NCBI GenBank assembly: GCA_947258755.1
Contig: CAMYJO010000019.1
Location: 2,496 to 46,258 of the forward strand
DNA length: 43,763 bases
Source: an uncultured Gammaproteobacteria bacterium
GTDB taxonomy: Bacteria; Pseudomonadota; Gammaproteobacteria; JAADHQ01
Reading direction: 5' to 3'
The position numbers and the translations under genes are program-made. The notes under the pieces were generated by a model. That model did no database searches, was not told where the DNA came from, and was given only the letters and a program-made list of their open reading frames with translations. Numbering within the stretch: the stretch's first letter is position 1; every line of letters starts with the position of its first letter. Of this stretch, positions 13,053 to 25,803 are shown piece by piece.

Positions 13053-14003
13053 CTAATACCCCATCATCTTTCTTCTTTCCGTATTTCTTTTAAGACGGTT
13101 CTGCTTATCGATTTTACTGTATTTGATATTAACCATGCGGTTTTGTTTTGATATTTCCGCCATTTTTGCTGACAACTCCTGCTGCTTTAATCGCATATTA
13201 CCGCCGGCAGCTATAAACGAATTATAATAGGCCTGCTCATTTTGCAGCGCGTGTATTTCGCTTTTCTTTTGCCATTTTAATTTAAAATCTTCACGCTTAT
13301 TATTAATTTCCCACTCGCGCAACTTTGCGCCCTTGGTATATTCGCGCAATTGTCGCTGGTTATTGCTATACATCCGTTCGACTTCCTTTTGTTCCCGCTT
13401 ATTCCAACGCTCTTCCTGACTTGTTAGGGCGCCGCCTATCGGCTTGGCCAAGATTGGCTGCTGCTTTGTCAGCAGCCCGAGCGCCTTGGCCTTGTCCAGC
13501 GCTTGCTGGTCACGTTCACTCATTACTTTATGTTTGTTTTTTTCAACTCCGATATATTCGTTGTGTTCATCTGTAGCCGCCTGTTTTTTGATCGCAAACA
13601 CTTTATCCTGATGCGACTTCATATCGACCTTGAATTTCTCCATCGCTTTCAGGTTATCCATACTTTGGGGATTCAGATATAGCTGACTGATATTCTGGTG
13701 CATTTCAGACTCGGCCTCTGCGATTTTCATATCACGCTGCGCCTTAAGCTCTATCTTCTGCATGCGGTAATCGGTATCCATACCACGCGTTTTTTCTTGA
13801 TATTCCTGATTTAAATCACGGGTGAAATCGCGAAAATCAGCCATTGCAGCGTGATTTTTTTTGTTACGCTCATTGACCTGCTGCTGTCGCTTTTTTTGCG
13901 CTTCGTTGCGTTCGGCTCTGAGTGCCCTATCGTCTTTCGCGAATGCAGTGGAATAAGGCAAGCTCATCATCAGCAGCAGCAATCCTGTTATCATTAATCT
14001 CAT
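13053..14003 (-). CDS. Secreted, highly charged coiled-coil protein of unknown function
   Basis: I do not recognise the family. The 316-residue product has a signal peptide (MRLMITGLLLLMMSLPYSTAFA) followed almost entirely by Lys/Glu/Gln/Arg-rich helix with heptad character, for example RNEAQKKRQQQVNERNKKN and YRMQKIELKAQRDMKIAEAE, and a basic end (RLKRNTERRKMMGY). A short break (LLTKQQPILAKPIGGALT) divides two coil blocks. The ATG at 14003 was chosen over the longer frame starting at 14066 because AGGAGAGGT lies just upstream and the signal peptide starts there. It may be a periplasmic chaperone or scaffold, but nothing in the sequence proves that. Confidence 0.8.
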   Translation of the reverse strand: MRLMITGLLLLMMSLPYSTAFAKDDRALRAERNEAQKKRQQQVNERNKKNHAAMADFRDFTRDLNQEYQEKTRGMDTDYRMQKIELKAQRDMKIAEAESEMHQNISQLYLNPQSMDNLKAMEKFKVDMKSHQDKVFAIKKQAATDEHNEYIGVEKNKHKVMSERDQQALDKAKALGLLTKQQPILAKPIGGALTSQEERWNKREQKEVERMYSNNQRQLREYTKGAKLREWEINNKREDFKLKWQKKSEIHALQNEQAYYNSFIAAGGNMRLKQQELSAKMAEISKQNRMVNIKYSKIDKQNRLKRNTERRKMMGY

Positions 14004-14164
14004 ATCTACCTCTCCTGATCTTGAAAAAATCACAATTGATAAGACACTACAATTAGCAAACAGCATGTAAAAACGGGGATAAATATTAGTATAGAATATT
14101 AGAGCGCATTGTTCTGTGCAGATATTTCAAGCTTTGCCATCTTTGGCTAATACCTTGTAATCCT

Positions 14165-14705: not shown

Positions 14706-15497
14706 TTAAACTGGCCGGTGTTGTTTTTTACGCCGACGTTGTCTTTTGCGGATAATCTGCTTGCCCCATAACCAGACACCAGACATGGCCAGAAATATCA
14801 ACAGCACCGCCGCCGCATCCATGATCAATGGTCCGCGACTACCGAACAGGCGGCCGCTGTGAAGGTCCAGCATTACTCTTTCAACGGGTAATTCATTGCT
14901 ACGATATAACTGCGCAACACGCTGTTTTAATGCTTCAGGGGCGGAGGTTTGCTCTGACCAGGTCACACCCGTTACCTGATCCTGTTCCTGCCATTTGAGA
15001 AAATCGCGATCGGTCAGGTAATAACCATGTGCTGCTTGAATGACTATGCGACCATCCTGCAGCTGTCCAATTCTTTTCATACCGGAGGGAACGCCTTGTA
15101 TGCCACCGAGTTGCTCGATCACCTCGGCATCAAAGGTCAGCATCAAGATCTTGCCAGTCGTGGCGACAGCGATAAAATGCGGGAACGACAACGCGCCAAC
15201 GGGCTGCGTATAGTTTCCATTCAGTCGCTGCTTGTCCAGGTACAGACTATCGCCCACATGCAGCAGCCATTTATTACCGACCTGGTAGGAGTGCTGTTCT
15301 GTCGGCGACTGGATGCCATACCAATCCAGCAACCAGTCGGATTCCACATAGTTACTGTCCAGCTTTAAGCGCTCGGTATGATTGAGTGCGATACCGGTTA
15401 TTGCCAGAATCAAGATAAACAGGGCGGCAACGATACCGACATACCGATGCCAGATATACAGGGACCTGAGTTTTCTGTGTTTGTGACGGACGGTCAT
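14706..15497 (-). CDS. PepSY-associated transmembrane protein
   Basis: A 263-residue inner-membrane protein with the PepSY_TM arrangement: a short basic N-terminus, helix 1 (about 17-40, containing WHRYVGIVAALFILILAITG), a large periplasmic section, and helix 2 (about 223-245, MDAAAVLLIFLAMSGVWLWG) with a very basic tail. Conserved histidines in WHRYVG and ALNHTE and the LHSGRLFG motif fit the family, members of which relay electrons across the membrane to periplasmic flavin domains. It overlaps the FMN-binding gene by four bases (ATGA), so the two are translationally coupled. Reductive iron assimilation is inferred from the upstream Fur box. Confidence 0.83.
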   Translation of the reverse strand: MTVRHKHRKLRSLYIWHRYVGIVAALFILILAITGIALNHTERLKLDSNYVESDWLLDWYGIQSPTEQHSYQVGNKWLLHVGDSLYLDKQRLNGNYTQPVGALSFPHFIAVATTGKILMLTFDAEVIEQLGGIQGVPSGMKRIGQLQDGRIVIQAAHGYYLTDRDFLKWQEQDQVTGVTWSEQTSAPEALKQRVAQLYRSNELPVERVMLDLHSGRLFGSRGPLIMDAAAVLLIFLAMSGVWLWGKQIIRKRQRRRKKQHRPV

Positions 15498-16015
15498 GGC
15501 TCGCTGTTTATATGCTGATCAAAATACAGTGCGAGGCGGGCTAGTTTACGCAAGGCACGTACCGACAAGGTCGCCCCGGAAATACCGTCAATAGATTTAT
15601 TTAGTTGCTGCTCTTTATCTATCGCTGCATCCTTGAACTGGTCGGTGAAAAAGGCATGACGTACCTCCCAACCCCTGCTTTCCCTGAACACGAGCACCTT
15701 GACGCGCTCTATCCTGCCATTATTGACGACGATACCGGTCGTAATCGGTTTTTCCTTGCCGATCTCTTCCAGTATCCAGACCGTCCTGGCGTCCTTGCGC
15801 CAGTAACGAATGCGCAGGGCATTGGGTTTGTGTCCCAGGATATTTTCAACTGTAGGCCGTATTGATCGCGTCACCCATAGCATGCCCGGTTCGGGCACAC
15901 CGTCGGCAAAGCTATCCTGCAGGAAGGCCTCGGGCTCCTGATAGACACCACGGGCATGAACGGCTGTGGATGCCAGTATCAAAAACAGTGGTAAAAGCAA
16001 GCATGATGCACGCAT
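15494..16015 (-). CDS. Periplasmic FMN-binding domain protein with flavinylation motif
   Basis: A 173-residue exported protein (signal peptide MRASCLLLPLFLILASTAVHA). The motif DGISGATLS near the C-terminus matches the ApbE-type covalent flavinylation site, with Thr149 as the predicted FMN acceptor. The ATG at 16015 is preferred over 16027 because GAGG inside the first ATGAGG lies seven bases ahead of it. The gene overlaps the PepSY gene and follows the porin gene after an intrinsic hairpin terminator, so its level is probably set below that of the porin. No apbE is in the window; the transferase must be encoded elsewhere. Confidence 0.85.
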   Translation of the reverse strand: MRASCLLLPLFLILASTAVHARGVYQEPEAFLQDSFADGVPEPGMLWVTRSIRPTVENILGHKPNALRIRYWRKDARTVWILEEIGKEKPITTGIVVNNGRIERVKVLVFRESRGWEVRHAFFTDQFKDAAIDKEQQLNKSIDGISGATLSVRALRKLARLALYFDQHINSEP

Positions 16016-16029
16016 CACAGACCTCATAT

Positions 16030-16059
16030 AAAAAAAGGGGGAAGCGGCCTGCTTCCCCC
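16030..16059 (-). terminator. Intrinsic terminator/attenuator between porin and FMN-protein genes
   Basis: A perfect 9-bp stem GGGGGAAGC (16037-16045) with GCTTCCCCC (16051-16059) and a 5-base loop is followed on the minus strand by seven T residues. It lies between two genes that look like one operon, so it probably lets only part of the transcripts continue into the FMN-binding and PepSY genes. Confidence 0.88.
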
Positions 16060-16080
16060 GGCTATCACCAGCGTATTCTA

Positions 16081-17274
16081 TCAGAATTGATAGCCCACAC
16101 CCAGATTGAAGCCGTCATCCGTGCCTGCTCCGCTTTGGTTCTGCACATCAAACTTGAATACGACATTTTCATGCGGCCAGTAATTTACACCAAAATCACT
16201 TTGCTTGACCTCGGTGTCCGCGGCGTCACCTGCATTATTATCCCAGGCACTGTAGCGTGCAAACACACCCCATTTGGAGTTGATCTTATAGGAAGGCTCG
16301 ATATACCAACCACTCTGCTCGTCTCGACCAACTGCTGCAGCAGCAGCACCATCGATGTCCCACTGCGCATACAGGGCACGCACGCCGAATGGACCTTTCT
16401 GATAGACCGCATGGGCCTCGATCATGTTTGCGCTGGCATCGGTACCTGCCACACCCTGGCCCTGGGTCAGGTCTGACTGATGCTGAACAGTTGCAGCCAA
16501 CTCCAGTCCAGGAACCCCCGTGTACTTGAGACGTCCAAGAACAGCCGGATCGTTCGCGACCGCTTCGGATACTTTCTGTCGACCACTACGAATCAGGAAC
16601 GCCTTACTACCAGTGGTCGGTGTTGCCAGACCAGATGTTAGGGCCAGGTCATAGCTGAAGCCGCTACCAAACTGTCCGCTCATCGCGACACCCGCTTCCC
16701 ACCAGGTAGTCGGGATGATGTTTTTCTCTACTGAATTTCGTTCCACACCGTAGAATGTATCCGGCTCATGAGTTTCATTGAGGATACCAACAGGCAGCAG
16801 AAAAAGCCCGGCCTTAGTTGACAGCCTGTCATTCAGATCCATTTCGATATAGGCCTGTTCGAGTTCAACCTCACCTTCCTTACCTTCGCCGGCCAGTGAA
16901 TGTTCGAGCTCCAATTCAGAGAAGAAGCGGATCTTGTCGGTAAACTCATGACCGAAGAACAAAACAAAACGGTGGAAATCAATCTCATCGTCCTTGTCCT
17001 TGATATTGTTGTAATGCAACTCACCATAGCCTCCAATGGACGTGGAACCCTTGGCTCCATGTCCGTGCCCCATTTTGTCATCCTTCTTTTCTGCAACTTC
17101 CATACTGACTTCCAGCTGCTCTGAAAGCTGCTTGTTTTCTTTCTTTAGTTTTTCGATCTGTTGCTGTTGTTGCTGCTGGTTCTTCCACATTTCATCCAGC
17201 GATGGTGTCTCGGCGGCGTTCGCACTCATGGATATCGCCGCACTAAATAATGTAGCTGTCGTCAGTAATTTCAT
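16081..17274 (-). CDS. Outer-membrane porin-like beta-barrel protein with N-terminal coiled coil
   Basis: A 397-residue outer-membrane protein: signal peptide (MKLLTTATLFSAAISMSANA), a short coiled coil (QQQQQQQIEKLKKENKQLSEQLE), a His-rich linker KMGHGHGAKGS, then barrel strands starting at IGGYGELHYNN and ending with the terminal phenylalanine GVGYQF required for barrel assembly. The ATG at 17274 was chosen over the longer frame starting at 17340 because GGAG and the signal peptide fit there. The Fur box at 17348-17366 overlaps the likely promoter. The His-rich segment hints at metal binding. The transported solute is unknown; an iron-linked role is inferred from regulation and neighbours. 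Confidence 0.83.
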   Translation of the reverse strand: MKLLTTATLFSAAISMSANAAETPSLDEMWKNQQQQQQQIEKLKKENKQLSEQLEVSMEVAEKKDDKMGHGHGAKGSTSIGGYGELHYNNIKDKDDEIDFHRFVLFFGHEFTDKIRFFSELELEHSLAGEGKEGEVELEQAYIEMDLNDRLSTKAGLFLLPVGILNETHEPDTFYGVERNSVEKNIIPTTWWEAGVAMSGQFGSGFSYDLALTSGLATPTTGSKAFLIRSGRQKVSEAVANDPAVLGRLKYTGVPGLELAATVQHQSDLTQGQGVAGTDASANMIEAHAVYQKGPFGVRALYAQWDIDGAAAAAVGRDEQSGWYIEPSYKINSKWGVFARYSAWDNNAGDAADTEVKQSDFGVNYWPHENVVFKFDVQNQSGAGTDDGFNLGVGYQF

Positions 17275-17347
17275 CTTGCCAGTCTCCAATTCTAAAAATA
17301 AATAAATGCCCAAAATCAACTGCGGAGAATTATTCCACAATATTATT

Positions 17348-17366
17348 ACAAATGCAAATCATTATC
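17348..17366. promoter_or_regulatory. Fur box upstream of porin/FMN/PepSY operon
   Basis: ACAAATGCAAATCATTATC matches 14 of 19 Fur consensus positions with a perfect right half (AATCATTATC), and the ATTATCATT text extends it. On the minus strand a likely promoter, TTGCAT then AATAAT with 17-base spacing, has its -35 inside the box. Ferrous Fur would therefore block transcription of the porin operon. Confidence 0.7.
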
Positions 17367-17603
17367 ATTTAGATTAACTAGTAGATTAGCATTATTTGTA
17401 AAATGCCGTGAATTCGACTCCAGCAGCAGCCTGAAATTTCATTTATTTCATTATTAATCAATAATCTATTGTATTTTTGAGAACTCCGTGATGAGCTCAG
17501 GGAGGGAACAAAATTACTGCTATGCTTGGGAAAATCAGCAAGTTAGCACCGAATCTAGTCAGGTGTTATCATTACTCTTATATAGTATGTACAGGAGGCG
17601 GGT

Positions 17604-18002
17604 ATGTCCCAGTCAGCATTAGCAGAAAACCTATTTAACACCGAATTGAGCGAAGCCGAAGTCAGCCTATCAACGTTGGCACAGGAAAAAATGGCCGCAT
17701 TAATTGCGGATGCCGAGGATGATATCGAAGCCATCCGTATCTATGTATCCGGCGGTGGCTGTGGCGGCATGACCTACGGCATGACCTTCACCGATAGCAA
17801 GTCCGATTTCGATACGATCAGGGACTTTGGTTCCTTCAAGATCTACGTTGATTCAGTTGCCCTATCCTACCTGAAGGGTGTTGAGGTCGATTATGTAGAA
17901 AAGCCGACAGGTGCCAGCTTTGTGTTCAATAATGTATTTGCCGCGACAGGTGGCAGTGGTGCCTGCGGAGCCTGTGGTTCCAGTGGCGGAGGTTGCGCCT
18001 AA
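17604..18002 (+). CDS. HesB/IscA-like Fe-S carrier with CxxC...C tail
   Basis: A 132-residue A-type iron-sulfur scaffold/carrier. Cys53 sits in SGGGCGGMTYGMTF, the family position, but the C-terminal pair is spaced differently from ErpA and IscA: CGACGSSGGGC, giving Cys121, Cys124 and Cys131 instead of CGC. An extended acidic N-terminus of about 25 residues precedes the domain. A strong AGGAGG ribosome site precedes the ATG. The next gene, an ATP-grasp ligase, begins within 60 bases and is probably cotranscribed. The altered cysteine spacing may change cluster type or client. Confidence 0.88.
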   Translation: MSQSALAENLFNTELSEAEVSLSTLAQEKMAALIADAEDDIEAIRIYVSGGGCGGMTYGMTFTDSKSDFDTIRDFGSFKIYVDSVALSYLKGVEVDYVEKPTGASFVFNNVFAATGGSGACGACGSSGGGCA

Positions 18003-23423: not shown

Positions 23424-24080
23424 ATGAGCTTATCTATCTTTGATCTAGACAATACCTTGCTGAATGGCGACAGCGACTATCTGTGGGGGCAGTTCCTGGC
23501 TGAACAGGGGATTGTCGACGGTGAGCACTATGAGCAGCAGAATTTGGCCTTTTATGAACAATACAAACAAGGCTCGCTGGATATCTACGAATTCCTGAGC
23601 TTCTCACTGAAGCCACTCAGTGAGCATTCGTTGGACAAATTGCATCAATGGCGTGAGCAATTCATGCAGGAAAAGATCTTGCCGATTATTCTCGACAAGG
23701 CGCGCCAACTGGTGGAACAACATCGCCAACAAGGCAATACCTTGATGATCATTACGGCCACGAATCGTTTCGTGACCCAACCCATTGCCGATAATTTTGG
23801 CATACCACATCTGCTGGCAACAGACCCGGAAATGAAAGATGAACATTATACCGGCCGGGTCCAGGGTACACCCTGCTTTCAACAGGGCAAGGTCACACGA
23901 CTGCAGTACTGGCTGAACGAGCACAATGACAACCTGGACGATAGCTGGTTTTACAGTGACTCACATAATGATATCCCACTGCTGGACATCGTCACCCATC
24001 CGGTCGCGGTTGACCCGGATGATGCATTGCGGCAGCATGCCAGTTCCAATCAATGGGATATTATCAGTCTACGCGAATGA
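23424..24080 (+). CDS. HAD-superfamily phosphatase (IB subfamily, SerB/CicA-like)
   Basis: A 218-residue cytoplasmic phosphatase. The aspartyl nucleophile motif DLDNTLLNGDSD is at residues 7-18 (nucleophile Asp7, acid/base Asp9). Motif II is TLMIITATNRF, and motif IV is YSDSHNDIPLL. The all-helical cap lies between motifs I and II, as in HAD-IB enzymes. The rppH-HAD neighbourhood is also known in pseudomonads. The next gene, an ABC permease, overlaps its stop by four bases (ATGA). The physiological substrate (a phosphoserine-like or histidinol-phosphate compound) is not settled by sequence. Confidence 0.9.
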   Translation: MSLSIFDLDNTLLNGDSDYLWGQFLAEQGIVDGEHYEQQNLAFYEQYKQGSLDIYEFLSFSLKPLSEHSLDKLHQWREQFMQEKILPIILDKARQLVEQHRQQGNTLMIITATNRFVTQPIADNFGIPHLLATDPEMKDEHYTGRVQGTPCFQQGKVTRLQYWLNEHNDNLDDSWFYSDSHNDIPLLDIVTHPVAVDPDDALRQHASSNQWDIISLRE

Positions 24081-25045
24081 GCAAGAACCTACCTGCCCTG
24101 CTGTTGTTATTATTGGCTTGCCTGGGCAGTGTAATCCTTGCATTAAAGCTCGGCTCTGTGCCAGTGACATTTAGTGACCTGCTGTCCAGCCTGAGTAACC
24201 GACAGGGTCTTCATCAAGGGCTCATTTTTGAACTACGGCTGCCGCGCGCACTGGCGGCCTTCGTCTGCGGCGGCATGCTCGGTCTGGCCGGCCTGTTGAT
24301 GCAGGCGCTGTTAAGAAACCCGTTAGCAGATCCCTATATCCTCGGCGTCTCCGGTGGTGCAGCCAGTGGCGCGCTGTTGGCGATGCTGGCCGGCCTCGGT
24401 AGCTTGATGATTCAAGCTGCCGCATTCAGTGGTGCATTGCTGTCCATCGTCCTGGTCTTTGCCCTTGCCCATGGCAGTAGTAGCTGGACCTCGAATCGCC
24501 TGTTATTGACTGGCGTGGTGCTGGCGGCCGGCTGGAACGCCTTGATCAGCTTTCTACTGGTCATCAGCCCGAACCAACAAATCCATGGCATGTTGTTCTG
24601 GCTCATGGGCGACCTGAGCTATACACAGGCCGAAGTATGGGTTTTTGTGCTACTCGCCGTCATTACCCTCCTGAGCTTTATGCTTGCACGCCCGCTCAAC
24701 CTGATCAGCCGCGGTGAATTACAGGCGACCGCGCTCGGCGTCAACACCCGACAATTGCGTCTGCTATTGTTCTTTACCGCCTCATTACTAACCGCTGTCG
24801 CCATCAGCCTCGCCGGCAGCATCGGCTTTATTGGTCTGATGGCGCCACACATGCTCAGACTGGTCATCGGCTCCGACCACCGCAGCCTGGTACCGGCCGT
24901 AGTCCTGCTCGGCGGCACCCTGTTGATACTCGCCGATACTTTTGCCAGAACAGTACTGGCACCGACACAGTTACCGGTCGGCATTTTGACGGCCATCCTC
25001 GGCGTACCCACTTTTCTATACCTACTGTATCGGAATAATTCATGA
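24077..25045 (+). CDS. FecCD/BtuC-family ABC transporter permease
   Basis: A 322-residue inner-membrane permease with about ten helices. The family signature CGGMLGLAGLLMQALLRNPL followed by ADPYILGVSGGAASGALLAM is near residues 70-110, and the C-terminal GSIGFIGLMAPHMLRLVIG forms the coupling region. The ATG at 24077 overlaps the HAD stop. The family imports cobalamin, haem or ferric siderophores with a periplasmic binding protein; none is present here. The cobalamin genes at 29.5-31 kb make B12 a reasonable guess. Confidence 0.93.
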   Translation: MSKNLPALLLLLLACLGSVILALKLGSVPVTFSDLLSSLSNRQGLHQGLIFELRLPRALAAFVCGGMLGLAGLLMQALLRNPLADPYILGVSGGAASGALLAMLAGLGSLMIQAAAFSGALLSIVLVFALAHGSSSWTSNRLLLTGVVLAAGWNALISFLLVISPNQQIHGMLFWLMGDLSYTQAEVWVFVLLAVITLLSFMLARPLNLISRGELQATALGVNTRQLRLLLFFTASLLTAVAISLAGSIGFIGLMAPHMLRLVIGSDHRSLVPAVVLLGGTLLILADTFARTVLAPTQLPVGILTAILGVPTFLYLLYRNNS

Positions 25046-25803
25046 GTACATTGCGCTGCAAAAAATTAGGCGTAGTTATCGGTGATACTCGCGTTTGCGA
25101 GGACCTCAACCTCGAACTTGGTGATGGGCAAAGCTGGGCAGTCCTCGGACGCAACGGCAGCGGCAAGACCACACTGTTGCATACATTGGCAGGCCTGCGT
25201 CCGGCACAGCAGGGCAGCATCCTACTCAATGGGCAGAGCCTGGCAGAACAGTCGAAAAAACAGATCGCCCGCCACCTCGGCGTTTTATTTCAAACGGAGA
25301 TCGATCACTTTCCAACCACGGTACTCGAATACACGTTGATGGGCAGACACCCACATCTCGGTTGGTTGCAATGGGAGTCTGAAGCGGATATCGCTATAGC
25401 CGAACAGGCCCTGCAACAGGTCGACCTACTGGATCTGAAACAACGAGATATCTCCACGCTGTCGGGTGGCGAACGCCGACGCATGAATATAGCCTGCCTA
25501 CTGACCCAGGCACCTGACATCGCCCTGCTTGATGAGCCCAGTAATCATCTCGATCTGCAACACCAGATCGAGACACTGAGCCTGGTCAGGGAGCAATACC
25601 GACAACGCCTGTTGCTGATGTCGGCACACGACATTAACCTGGCGACCCGTTTTTGCAGTCATGCCATACTGTTATTTGGTGATGGAAAGCTAACACACGG
25701 TACATTCAATGATGTCGTTACAACAGCAAGCCTGCAACATTTGTATGGCGTAGCGATCAATAGTGTCCAGGCAGACGGACATACCTTGTACTACCCTGCA
25801 TAG
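25042..25803 (+). CDS. ABC transporter ATP-binding protein, BtuD/FecE type
   Basis: The 253-residue ATPase of the importer whose permease gene it overlaps by four bases. Walker A is GRNGSGKT (36-43), the signature is LSGGERRR (140-147), Walker B is IALLDEPSNHLDL (160-172) and the switch His is in SAHDINLATRFC. The Q-loop is in VLFQTEIDHFPTTV. The SAHDIN H-loop and overall length fit cobalamin/siderophore importers. The substrate is uncertain, as for the permease. Confidence 0.93.
   Translation: MSTLRCKKLGVVIGDTRVCEDLNLELGDGQSWAVLGRNGSGKTTLLHTLAGLRPAQQGSILLNGQSLAEQSKKQIARHLGVLFQTEIDHFPTTVLEYTLMGRHPHLGWLQWESEADIAIAEQALQQVDLLDLKQRDISTLSGGERRRMNIACLLTQAPDIALLDEPSNHLDLQHQIETLSLVREQYRQRLLLMSAHDINLATRFCSHAILLFGDGKLTHGTFNDVVTTASLQHLYGVAINSVQADGHTLYYPA

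Follow-up and report, generated by a model that had tools for sequence, protein, structure and literature searches.

A porin, an exported FMN-binding protein and a two-helix PepSY_TM protein behind a Fur-type box: a candidate module for reductive iron acquisition in Gammaproteobacteria

How iron that is not carried by siderophores passes the outer membrane of diderm bacteria, and whether it is reduced in the periplasm, is poorly defined. The closest described systems are the PepSY-like flavinylation clusters (Meheust et al. 2021, PMC8238504), which have been linked with iron reduction and, for some species, with Fur; the word 'porin' does not occur in the main text of that paper. Among individual proteins, FoxB is a ferrisiderophore reductase with PepSY alpha/beta domains, and CrpH of Bordetella pertussis is a PepSY_TM protein whose gene shares an operon with that of an outer-membrane metal importer (both PMC13038864). 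As cited in PMC8238504, VciB of Vibrio cholerae is a PepSY-like protein that is reported to reduce iron and to promote ferrous iron uptake. On the side of the outer membrane, psp of Geobacter and Desulfuromonas encodes a PF07396-like porin with a predicted Fur box and has been proposed as a ferrous iron carrier (Rodionov et al. 2004, PMC545781), and Slr1908 of Synechocystis is an iron-selective porin according to Qiu et al. 2021 as cited in PMC11126600. Here we describe a locus in a 43,763-nucleotide stretch of DNA from an uncultured gammaproteobacterium (hereafter the window; positions 2,496 to 46,258 of contig CAMYJO010000019.1, assembly GCA_947258755.1), in which genes for a porin, an exported protein with a flavin mononucleotide (FMN)-binding domain and a PepSY_TM membrane protein follow one another. 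Taken as a whole, this trio is probably a Fur-repressed module for reductive iron acquisition.

The first-pass annotation of the window had described porin, FMN protein and PepSY protein as one minus-strand run, with which the gene coordinates and Pfam matches agree, and the ATGA overlap that it noted between the last two genes is present at the FMN_bind/PepSY_TM junction. In a Pfam search of the open reading frames of the window, all three proteins scored above the curated cut-offs: the porin matched PF07396 (Phosphate-selective porin O and P) at 41.3 bits against a gathering threshold of 20.9, the FMN protein PF04205 at 38.7 against 22, and the PepSY_TM protein PF03929 at 55.8 against 28.8. 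The features of the locus are as follows.

14706-15497, minus strand: PepSY_TM gene, 263 amino acids, two helices and, in the model, a beta-blade periplasmic domain (PF03929, E 8.6e-15; PF16357, E 1.5e-11)
14859-14861, minus strand: codon of H213, in the LHSGR motif before helix 2; candidate haem ligand, invariant
15378-15380, minus strand: codon of H40, at the end of helix 1; candidate haem ligand, invariant
15447-15449, minus strand: codon of H17, in the HRxxG motif of helix 1; candidate haem ligand, invariant
15494-16027, minus strand: gene of the exported FMN_bind protein, 177-amino-acid precursor (PF04205, E 1.6e-9; 28-member alignment)
15569-15571, minus strand: codon of T153, the predicted ApbE flavinylation site in DGISGAT
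16037-16059, minus strand: intrinsic terminator GGGGGAAGCAGGCCGCTTCCCCC followed by T7, in the gap between porin and FMN genes
16081-17274, minus strand, ATG at 17274: porin gene, 397-amino-acid precursor with a signal peptide-like start and a coiled-coil N terminus (PF07396, E 1.6e-10)
17329-17358, minus strand: promoter-like pair, TTTGCA and AATAAT with an 18-nucleotide spacer containing TG (consensus scan)
17350-17370, minus strand: Fur-type box AAATGATAATGATTTGCATTT, 21 bp, 5' of the porin gene, identical to the motif that emerged de novo from the DNA upstream of 39 porin homologues

Since the window's own taxonomic order offered only four genomes, relatives were sought in a class-level sample of 274 Gammaproteobacteria. 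Relatives of the FMN protein occur in 65 of these genomes, or in 61 at a stricter cut, and 58 of the 61 have the porin and 58 the PepSY_TM protein. Independent searches with the FMN protein, the porin and the PepSY_TM protein returned 61, 63 and 60 genomes, with all three proteins in 55 and phi coefficients of 0.86-0.95 between members of the trio. The porin gene lies immediately upstream in 84 of the 85 loci with room for it, and the PepSY_TM gene immediately downstream in 88 of 89 (the 89-locus set partly overlaps the first locus set), so the adjacency proposed from the window alone holds in its relatives and the three-gene order is near-constant; exceptions among the loci read include L067 and L070, in which the nearest porin is some 3 kb away. 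The order was seen in about 100 distinct loci. Overall, about 22% of the Gammaproteobacteria sampled carry the trio, and most of these are environmental lineages known through metagenomes; it is also found in some Alphaproteobacteria. Among the named carriers are Thiohalobacter thiocyanaticus (the cultured strain Hrh1 is L104), Thiogranum and Cycloclasticus, together with an Alphaproteobacterium and a record labelled Pelagicoccus. Because a wider, phylum-level draw contained the FMN family in just 9 genomes out of 299, and five of these nine came from a single taxonomic family outside the class, the FMN family is concentrated in certain lineages. No relatives were found in viral contigs. A search of the open-access literature, which leaves subscription papers uncovered, returned no published account of the trio.

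A Gibbs search of the 39 porin upstream regions, run with no prior motif, converged on AAATGAgAATGATTTGCATTT (21 bits). The 7-1-7 Fur consensus TGATAATNATTATCA is matched at at least 11 of 14 positions in 24 of 39 porin upstream regions as compared to 2.9% of background windows, and in a larger, partly overlapping set the box is present at at least 15 of 21 positions in 57 of 74 loci as compared to 3.4% of background windows. A strict palindromic Fur consensus reached at least 13 of 19 positions in only 20 of 41 promoters; the asymmetric motif found de novo fits the site better. Within the window's own genome, the perfect box occurs a single time and boxes with 3 mismatches are few; one lies just 5' of a gene for an FbpA-type iron-binding protein, and another is found upstream of bfd-bfr-bfr. 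Both fbp and bfd are well-known targets of Fur, and the same genome encodes a FUR-family protein (E 2.2e-45). The -35 element TTTGCA (from 17358) lies inside the box and the -10 element AATAAT ends at 17329; alone, the promoter scan is weak (6 sites against 4.0 expected). A Fur-like box over the likely promoter had been reported in the first-pass annotation, and the 21-mer at 17350-17370 does cover the -35 element and belongs to a motif recovered de novo. As in a Fur regulon, the promoter box is conserved across relatives, with the alphaproteobacterial copies as the exception: in L107, L154, L166 and L168-L171, which are alphaproteobacterial or so labelled, the trio is kept, twice with apbE alongside, and the gammaproteobacterial box is absent. 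The operon is apparently under the control of Fur, i.e., of an iron sensor. With an order that recurs and a box that emerges de novo, the three-gene set exceeds a chance neighbourhood.

The surroundings of the trio were scanned in 102 non-redundant loci of about 11.5 kb each. Iron genes were found in 24 of these (bacterioferritin in 18, an fbpA-type gene in 6 and feoB in 5), where about one locus per hundred would be expected by chance, by our own estimate for a gene present at 1-3 copies per genome of about 2.8 Mb. In L119, L131 and L149, one or more bfr-type genes (assigned by similarity, and partly split in L131), the porin, FMN and PepSY_TM genes and fbpA-fbpB-fbpC follow one another on one strand, and the binding protein of L131 matches solved iron-binding proteins, the best being 2pt1 at 7e-106. 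L144 and L161 have the order porin-FMN-PepSY_TM-fbpA, and L053 and L153 the order feoA-feoB-porin-FMN-PepSY_TM, with Pfam support for L053. The link to iron first suspected from the single box is firmer now, with boxes at the fbpA-type and bfd-bfr genes of the same genome and fbpABC, feoAB and bfr adjoining the trio in relatives. A Fur-controlled role in iron supply is very likely.

The exported FMN protein begins with what was judged by eye to be a hydrophobic leader and carries an intact [S/T]GA[S/T] motif, SGAT, at residues 150-153 of the precursor. Across 28 relatives, D147, G151, A152, T153 and 27 other positions are invariant. The DGISGAT motif had been recognized before with its threonine numbered 149; the motif stands, but residue 149 is an isoleucine. 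Counted along the precursor, the threonine of SGAT is T153, which is predicted to be the site at which ApbE attaches covalent FMN. An RnfG/NqrC identity was not borne out, as TIGR01947 scored 17.1 bits against a cut-off of 102 and no match to NqrC models was listed. Three apbE genes are present in the window's genome, and ApbE was detected in 58 of 61 carriers of the trio as compared to 138 of 213 other genomes (p = 6e-7, not corrected for kinship). The run has apbE as a fourth gene in L107 (backed by Pfam) and L145 (by similarity); in L126 apbE precedes the trio and in L154 it is divergent from it.

The PepSY_TM protein has two hydrophobic segments with positively charged ends, corresponding to two long helices, and H17, H40 and H213 are invariant in 27 sequences. 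Its profile matches FoxB (7ABW) with an E-value of 5e-7, and H17 and H213 align with the repeated motifs of FoxB. As the HR and LH-type motifs occur twice in FoxB in this profile alignment, the PepSY_TM protein is the counterpart of a single half of FoxB, and it may work as a dimer. In an AlphaFold2 model with a predicted local distance difference test (pLDDT) score of 93, residues 64-184 consist of strands only (DSSP), and the shape of this periplasmic part matches beta-propeller blades, unlike the alpha/beta PepSY domain. The earlier 'PepSY' label holds for the protein as a membrane protein of PF03929, a family matched by all 27 homologues; its periplasmic part is, in the model, made up of beta blades. 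FoxB was absent from the structure list returned by VIA-align, which was filled by the beta domain and is uninformative on the helices, whose relation to FoxB rests on the profile match. Together with 26 relatives, the protein encoded at 14706-15497, with its two helices and a periplasmic part modelled as three four-stranded blades, merits a family description of its own. In L010, L029 and others, a single in-frame stop is seen in the read-through alignment of PepSY_TM, mostly near an end, and is probably a start-site effect.

Fur-type control alone would also fit an iron-sparing carrier, in which the FMN protein takes the place of haem or Fe-S carriers within a redox chain of the periplasm, the porin is a general one and iron is the control rather than the substrate. 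Flavinylated proteins may indeed be favoured in iron-poor settings (PMC8238504). Such a carrier, however, would be paired with a membrane protein whose invariant histidines are of the haem-protein type, saving little iron, no oxidoreductase recurs beside the trio in the loci examined, and the joining of the trio to fbpABC, feoAB and bfr indicates iron supply; we consider this explanation unlikely. The relation of the PepSY_TM helices to FoxB by profile raises a second alternative, a ferrisiderophore or xenosiderophore reductase resembling FoxB and HiuB, both of which act on siderophores, that frees iron from siderophores imported through TonB receptors and has the porin as a minor companion. 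The window's genome encodes three TonB receptors, and in 6 loci, the window among them, a FecCD permease is encoded in the vicinity of the trio. The fixed outer-membrane gene of the cassette is nevertheless a porin and not a TonB receptor, the model of the periplasmic domain shows beta blades in place of an alpha/beta PepSY cavity, and the adjoining importers, Fbp and Feo, carry bare iron, which makes a siderophore reductase distinctly improbable.

For the porin, AlphaFold2 produced a 16-strand barrel with a helical N terminus at moderate confidence (mean pLDDT 78), with a fold resembling OmpC, OprP and DcaP. Conserved histidines are H87, H101, H109, H169, H288 and H368, an NETHEP loop is conserved, and the conserved acidic residues and histidines predicted to face the lumen include E85, H87, D99, H101, E120, E122 and E124. 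Assigned by strand alternation, the conserved lumen positions are predicted to comprise 12 acidic and 6 basic residues; OprP, according to the title of 2o4v, has an arginine ladder. This suggests a pore that may favour cations or metal complexes over phosphate. The porin itself was correctly named in the first-pass annotation, but the His-rich HGHG segment singled out there belongs to a linker that varies among homologues; lacking conservation, it was rejected as a functional signature. Searches of PDB sequences with the FMN and porin profiles returned no convincing relative.

The cargo of such a pore might be copper instead of iron, with the trio acting as a copper reductase of the CrpH kind that has a porin to itself, since CrpH is also a PepSY_TM protein encoded with an outer-membrane copper importer (PMC13038864); the Fur-type box in common with the fbpA-type and bfd-bfr genes of the same genome and the iron genes beside the trio make this most improbable. 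Least credible is a phosphate porin merely adjoining an unrelated flavin pair, for which the Pfam name, the terminator between porin and FMN genes and a Pst-type phosphate transporter in the window (far off, from 38273) could be cited, given the near-perfect linkage across about 100 distinct loci, the predicted acidic lumen as against the arginine ladder of OprP, and the position of the Fur-type box on the porin itself.

Other genes lie near the trio. An ErpA/IscA-like Fe-S protein gene (17604-18002, plus strand) is divergent from the porin, with which it has its upstream region in common, and an ErpA/IscA-like gene is likewise divergent from the porin in L034, L037, L039, L041, L045, L046 and L061. 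On the other side of the trio, positions 13053-14066 (minus strand) encode a charged, probably coiled-coil exported protein of 337 amino acids with no family match above cut-off. A FecCD permease and an ABC ATPase are encoded as a pair at 24053-25803 (plus strand), and a related permease is found near the trio in five other loci. Thioredoxin-like, CLC-channel and FecCD genes were considered as further parts of the cassette, but they are found again in part of the loci only, with distance and strand that vary, and are regarded as neighbours.

In the iron-acquisition module that we favour, iron scarcity would cause Fur to leave its box and the operon to be transcribed. The first-pass annotation had taken the three genes for one uniform operon and had missed the strong intrinsic terminator, GGGGGAAGCAGGCCGCTTCCCCC-T7, that separates the porin from the FMN gene at 16037-16059. 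A hairpin followed by a T run is present in the porin/FMN gap of 49 of 103 homologous loci as compared to 16 of 1030 mononucleotide shuffles, and the stem sequences differ among loci. If this terminator is leaky, porin would be made in excess, and the redox pair in smaller amounts by read-through. The acidic porin would then admit ferric iron or small iron complexes to the periplasm without TonB. At the inner membrane, the two-helix PepSY_TM protein, probably as a dimer, would hold b-type haem on H17, H40 and H213 and carry electrons, most likely from quinol, across the membrane to the exported FMN protein, which would carry covalent FMN attached to T153 by ApbE. Once reduced, this flavin would in turn reduce Fe(III) and so loosen its ligand, and the freed iron would pass to an inner-membrane importer, FbpABC in the window's genome and FeoAB in some others. 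A more elaborate arrangement, in which the FMN protein docks on the periplasmic coiled coil of the porin, delivers electrons at or through the pore and reduces Fe(III) during entry as a flavin counterpart of porin-cytochrome conduits, strikes us as very unlikely.

Several observations weigh against a reductive iron-acquisition module. Given the gap terminator, the porin and the redox genes are not always co-transcribed, the alphaproteobacterial copies have no Fur-type box, and ApbE went undetected in three carriers. FeoB shows no association with the trio (29 of 61 carriers as compared to 91 of 213 other genomes, p = 0.56), for which reason it was dropped as an argument, and it is absent from the window's genome; the trio may therefore serve whichever importer is at hand. 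Since the family of that genome's FbpA-type importer imports iron in the ferric form, the purpose of any reduction would have to be the release of the ligand. Finally, the three TonB receptors of the genome indicate that other routes of uptake exist. Should the module nevertheless act as proposed, an unassigned FMN_bind family and the two-helix PepSY_TM subfamily would gain a testable function, and environmental genomes a marker of reductive, TonB-independent iron uptake. The trio is a compact cassette behind a Fur-type box, a dedicated porin with a flavin redox pair, that in some relatives is adjoined by fbpABC or feoAB.

Compared with the systems described to date, the trio shares single elements with each. 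Like the trio, FoxB of Pseudomonas aeruginosa (7ABW) and HiuB of Caulobacter combine helices of the HRxxG and LHxGR type with a role in iron. FoxB has the two-helix unit twice, with the at least four membrane helices per chain of its type, and alpha/beta PepSY domains, whereas the trio protein has one unit of two helices and, in the model, beta blades in place of those domains; HiuB has a TonB receptor as its partner, and the fixed outer-membrane gene of the trio encodes a porin. CrpH is under copper-starvation control and has a TonB-dependent importer and at least four membrane segments, as opposed to the Fur-type box, porin and two helices found here. VciB is likened to the trio by description and not by sequence, and the account of it in PMC8238504 gives it no flavinylation parts, whereas the trio has an FMN_bind substrate. 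Psp is likewise comparable to the trio porin by description, and no FMN_bind or PepSY partner is described for it in PMC545781. Slr1908 resembles the trio porin in iron entry but is cyanobacterial and, according to the title of PMC8707739, of the SLH/OprB type, with no flavin partner described. The nearest counterparts are the clusters of PMC8238504, in which, as in the trio, a PepSY_TM protein is encoded beside an ApbE substrate, and the trio conforms to their pattern of a PF03929/PF16357 gene next to an FMN_bind or apbE gene. Those clusters mostly contain DUF2271 (2833 of 3220), DUF4198 and ApbE, whereas the trio has an FMN_bind substrate, an apbE gene that usually lies elsewhere and a fixed porin. 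The trio thus belongs with the PepSY-like flavinylation clusters of the 2021 study, differing from them in its substrate and its fixed porin.

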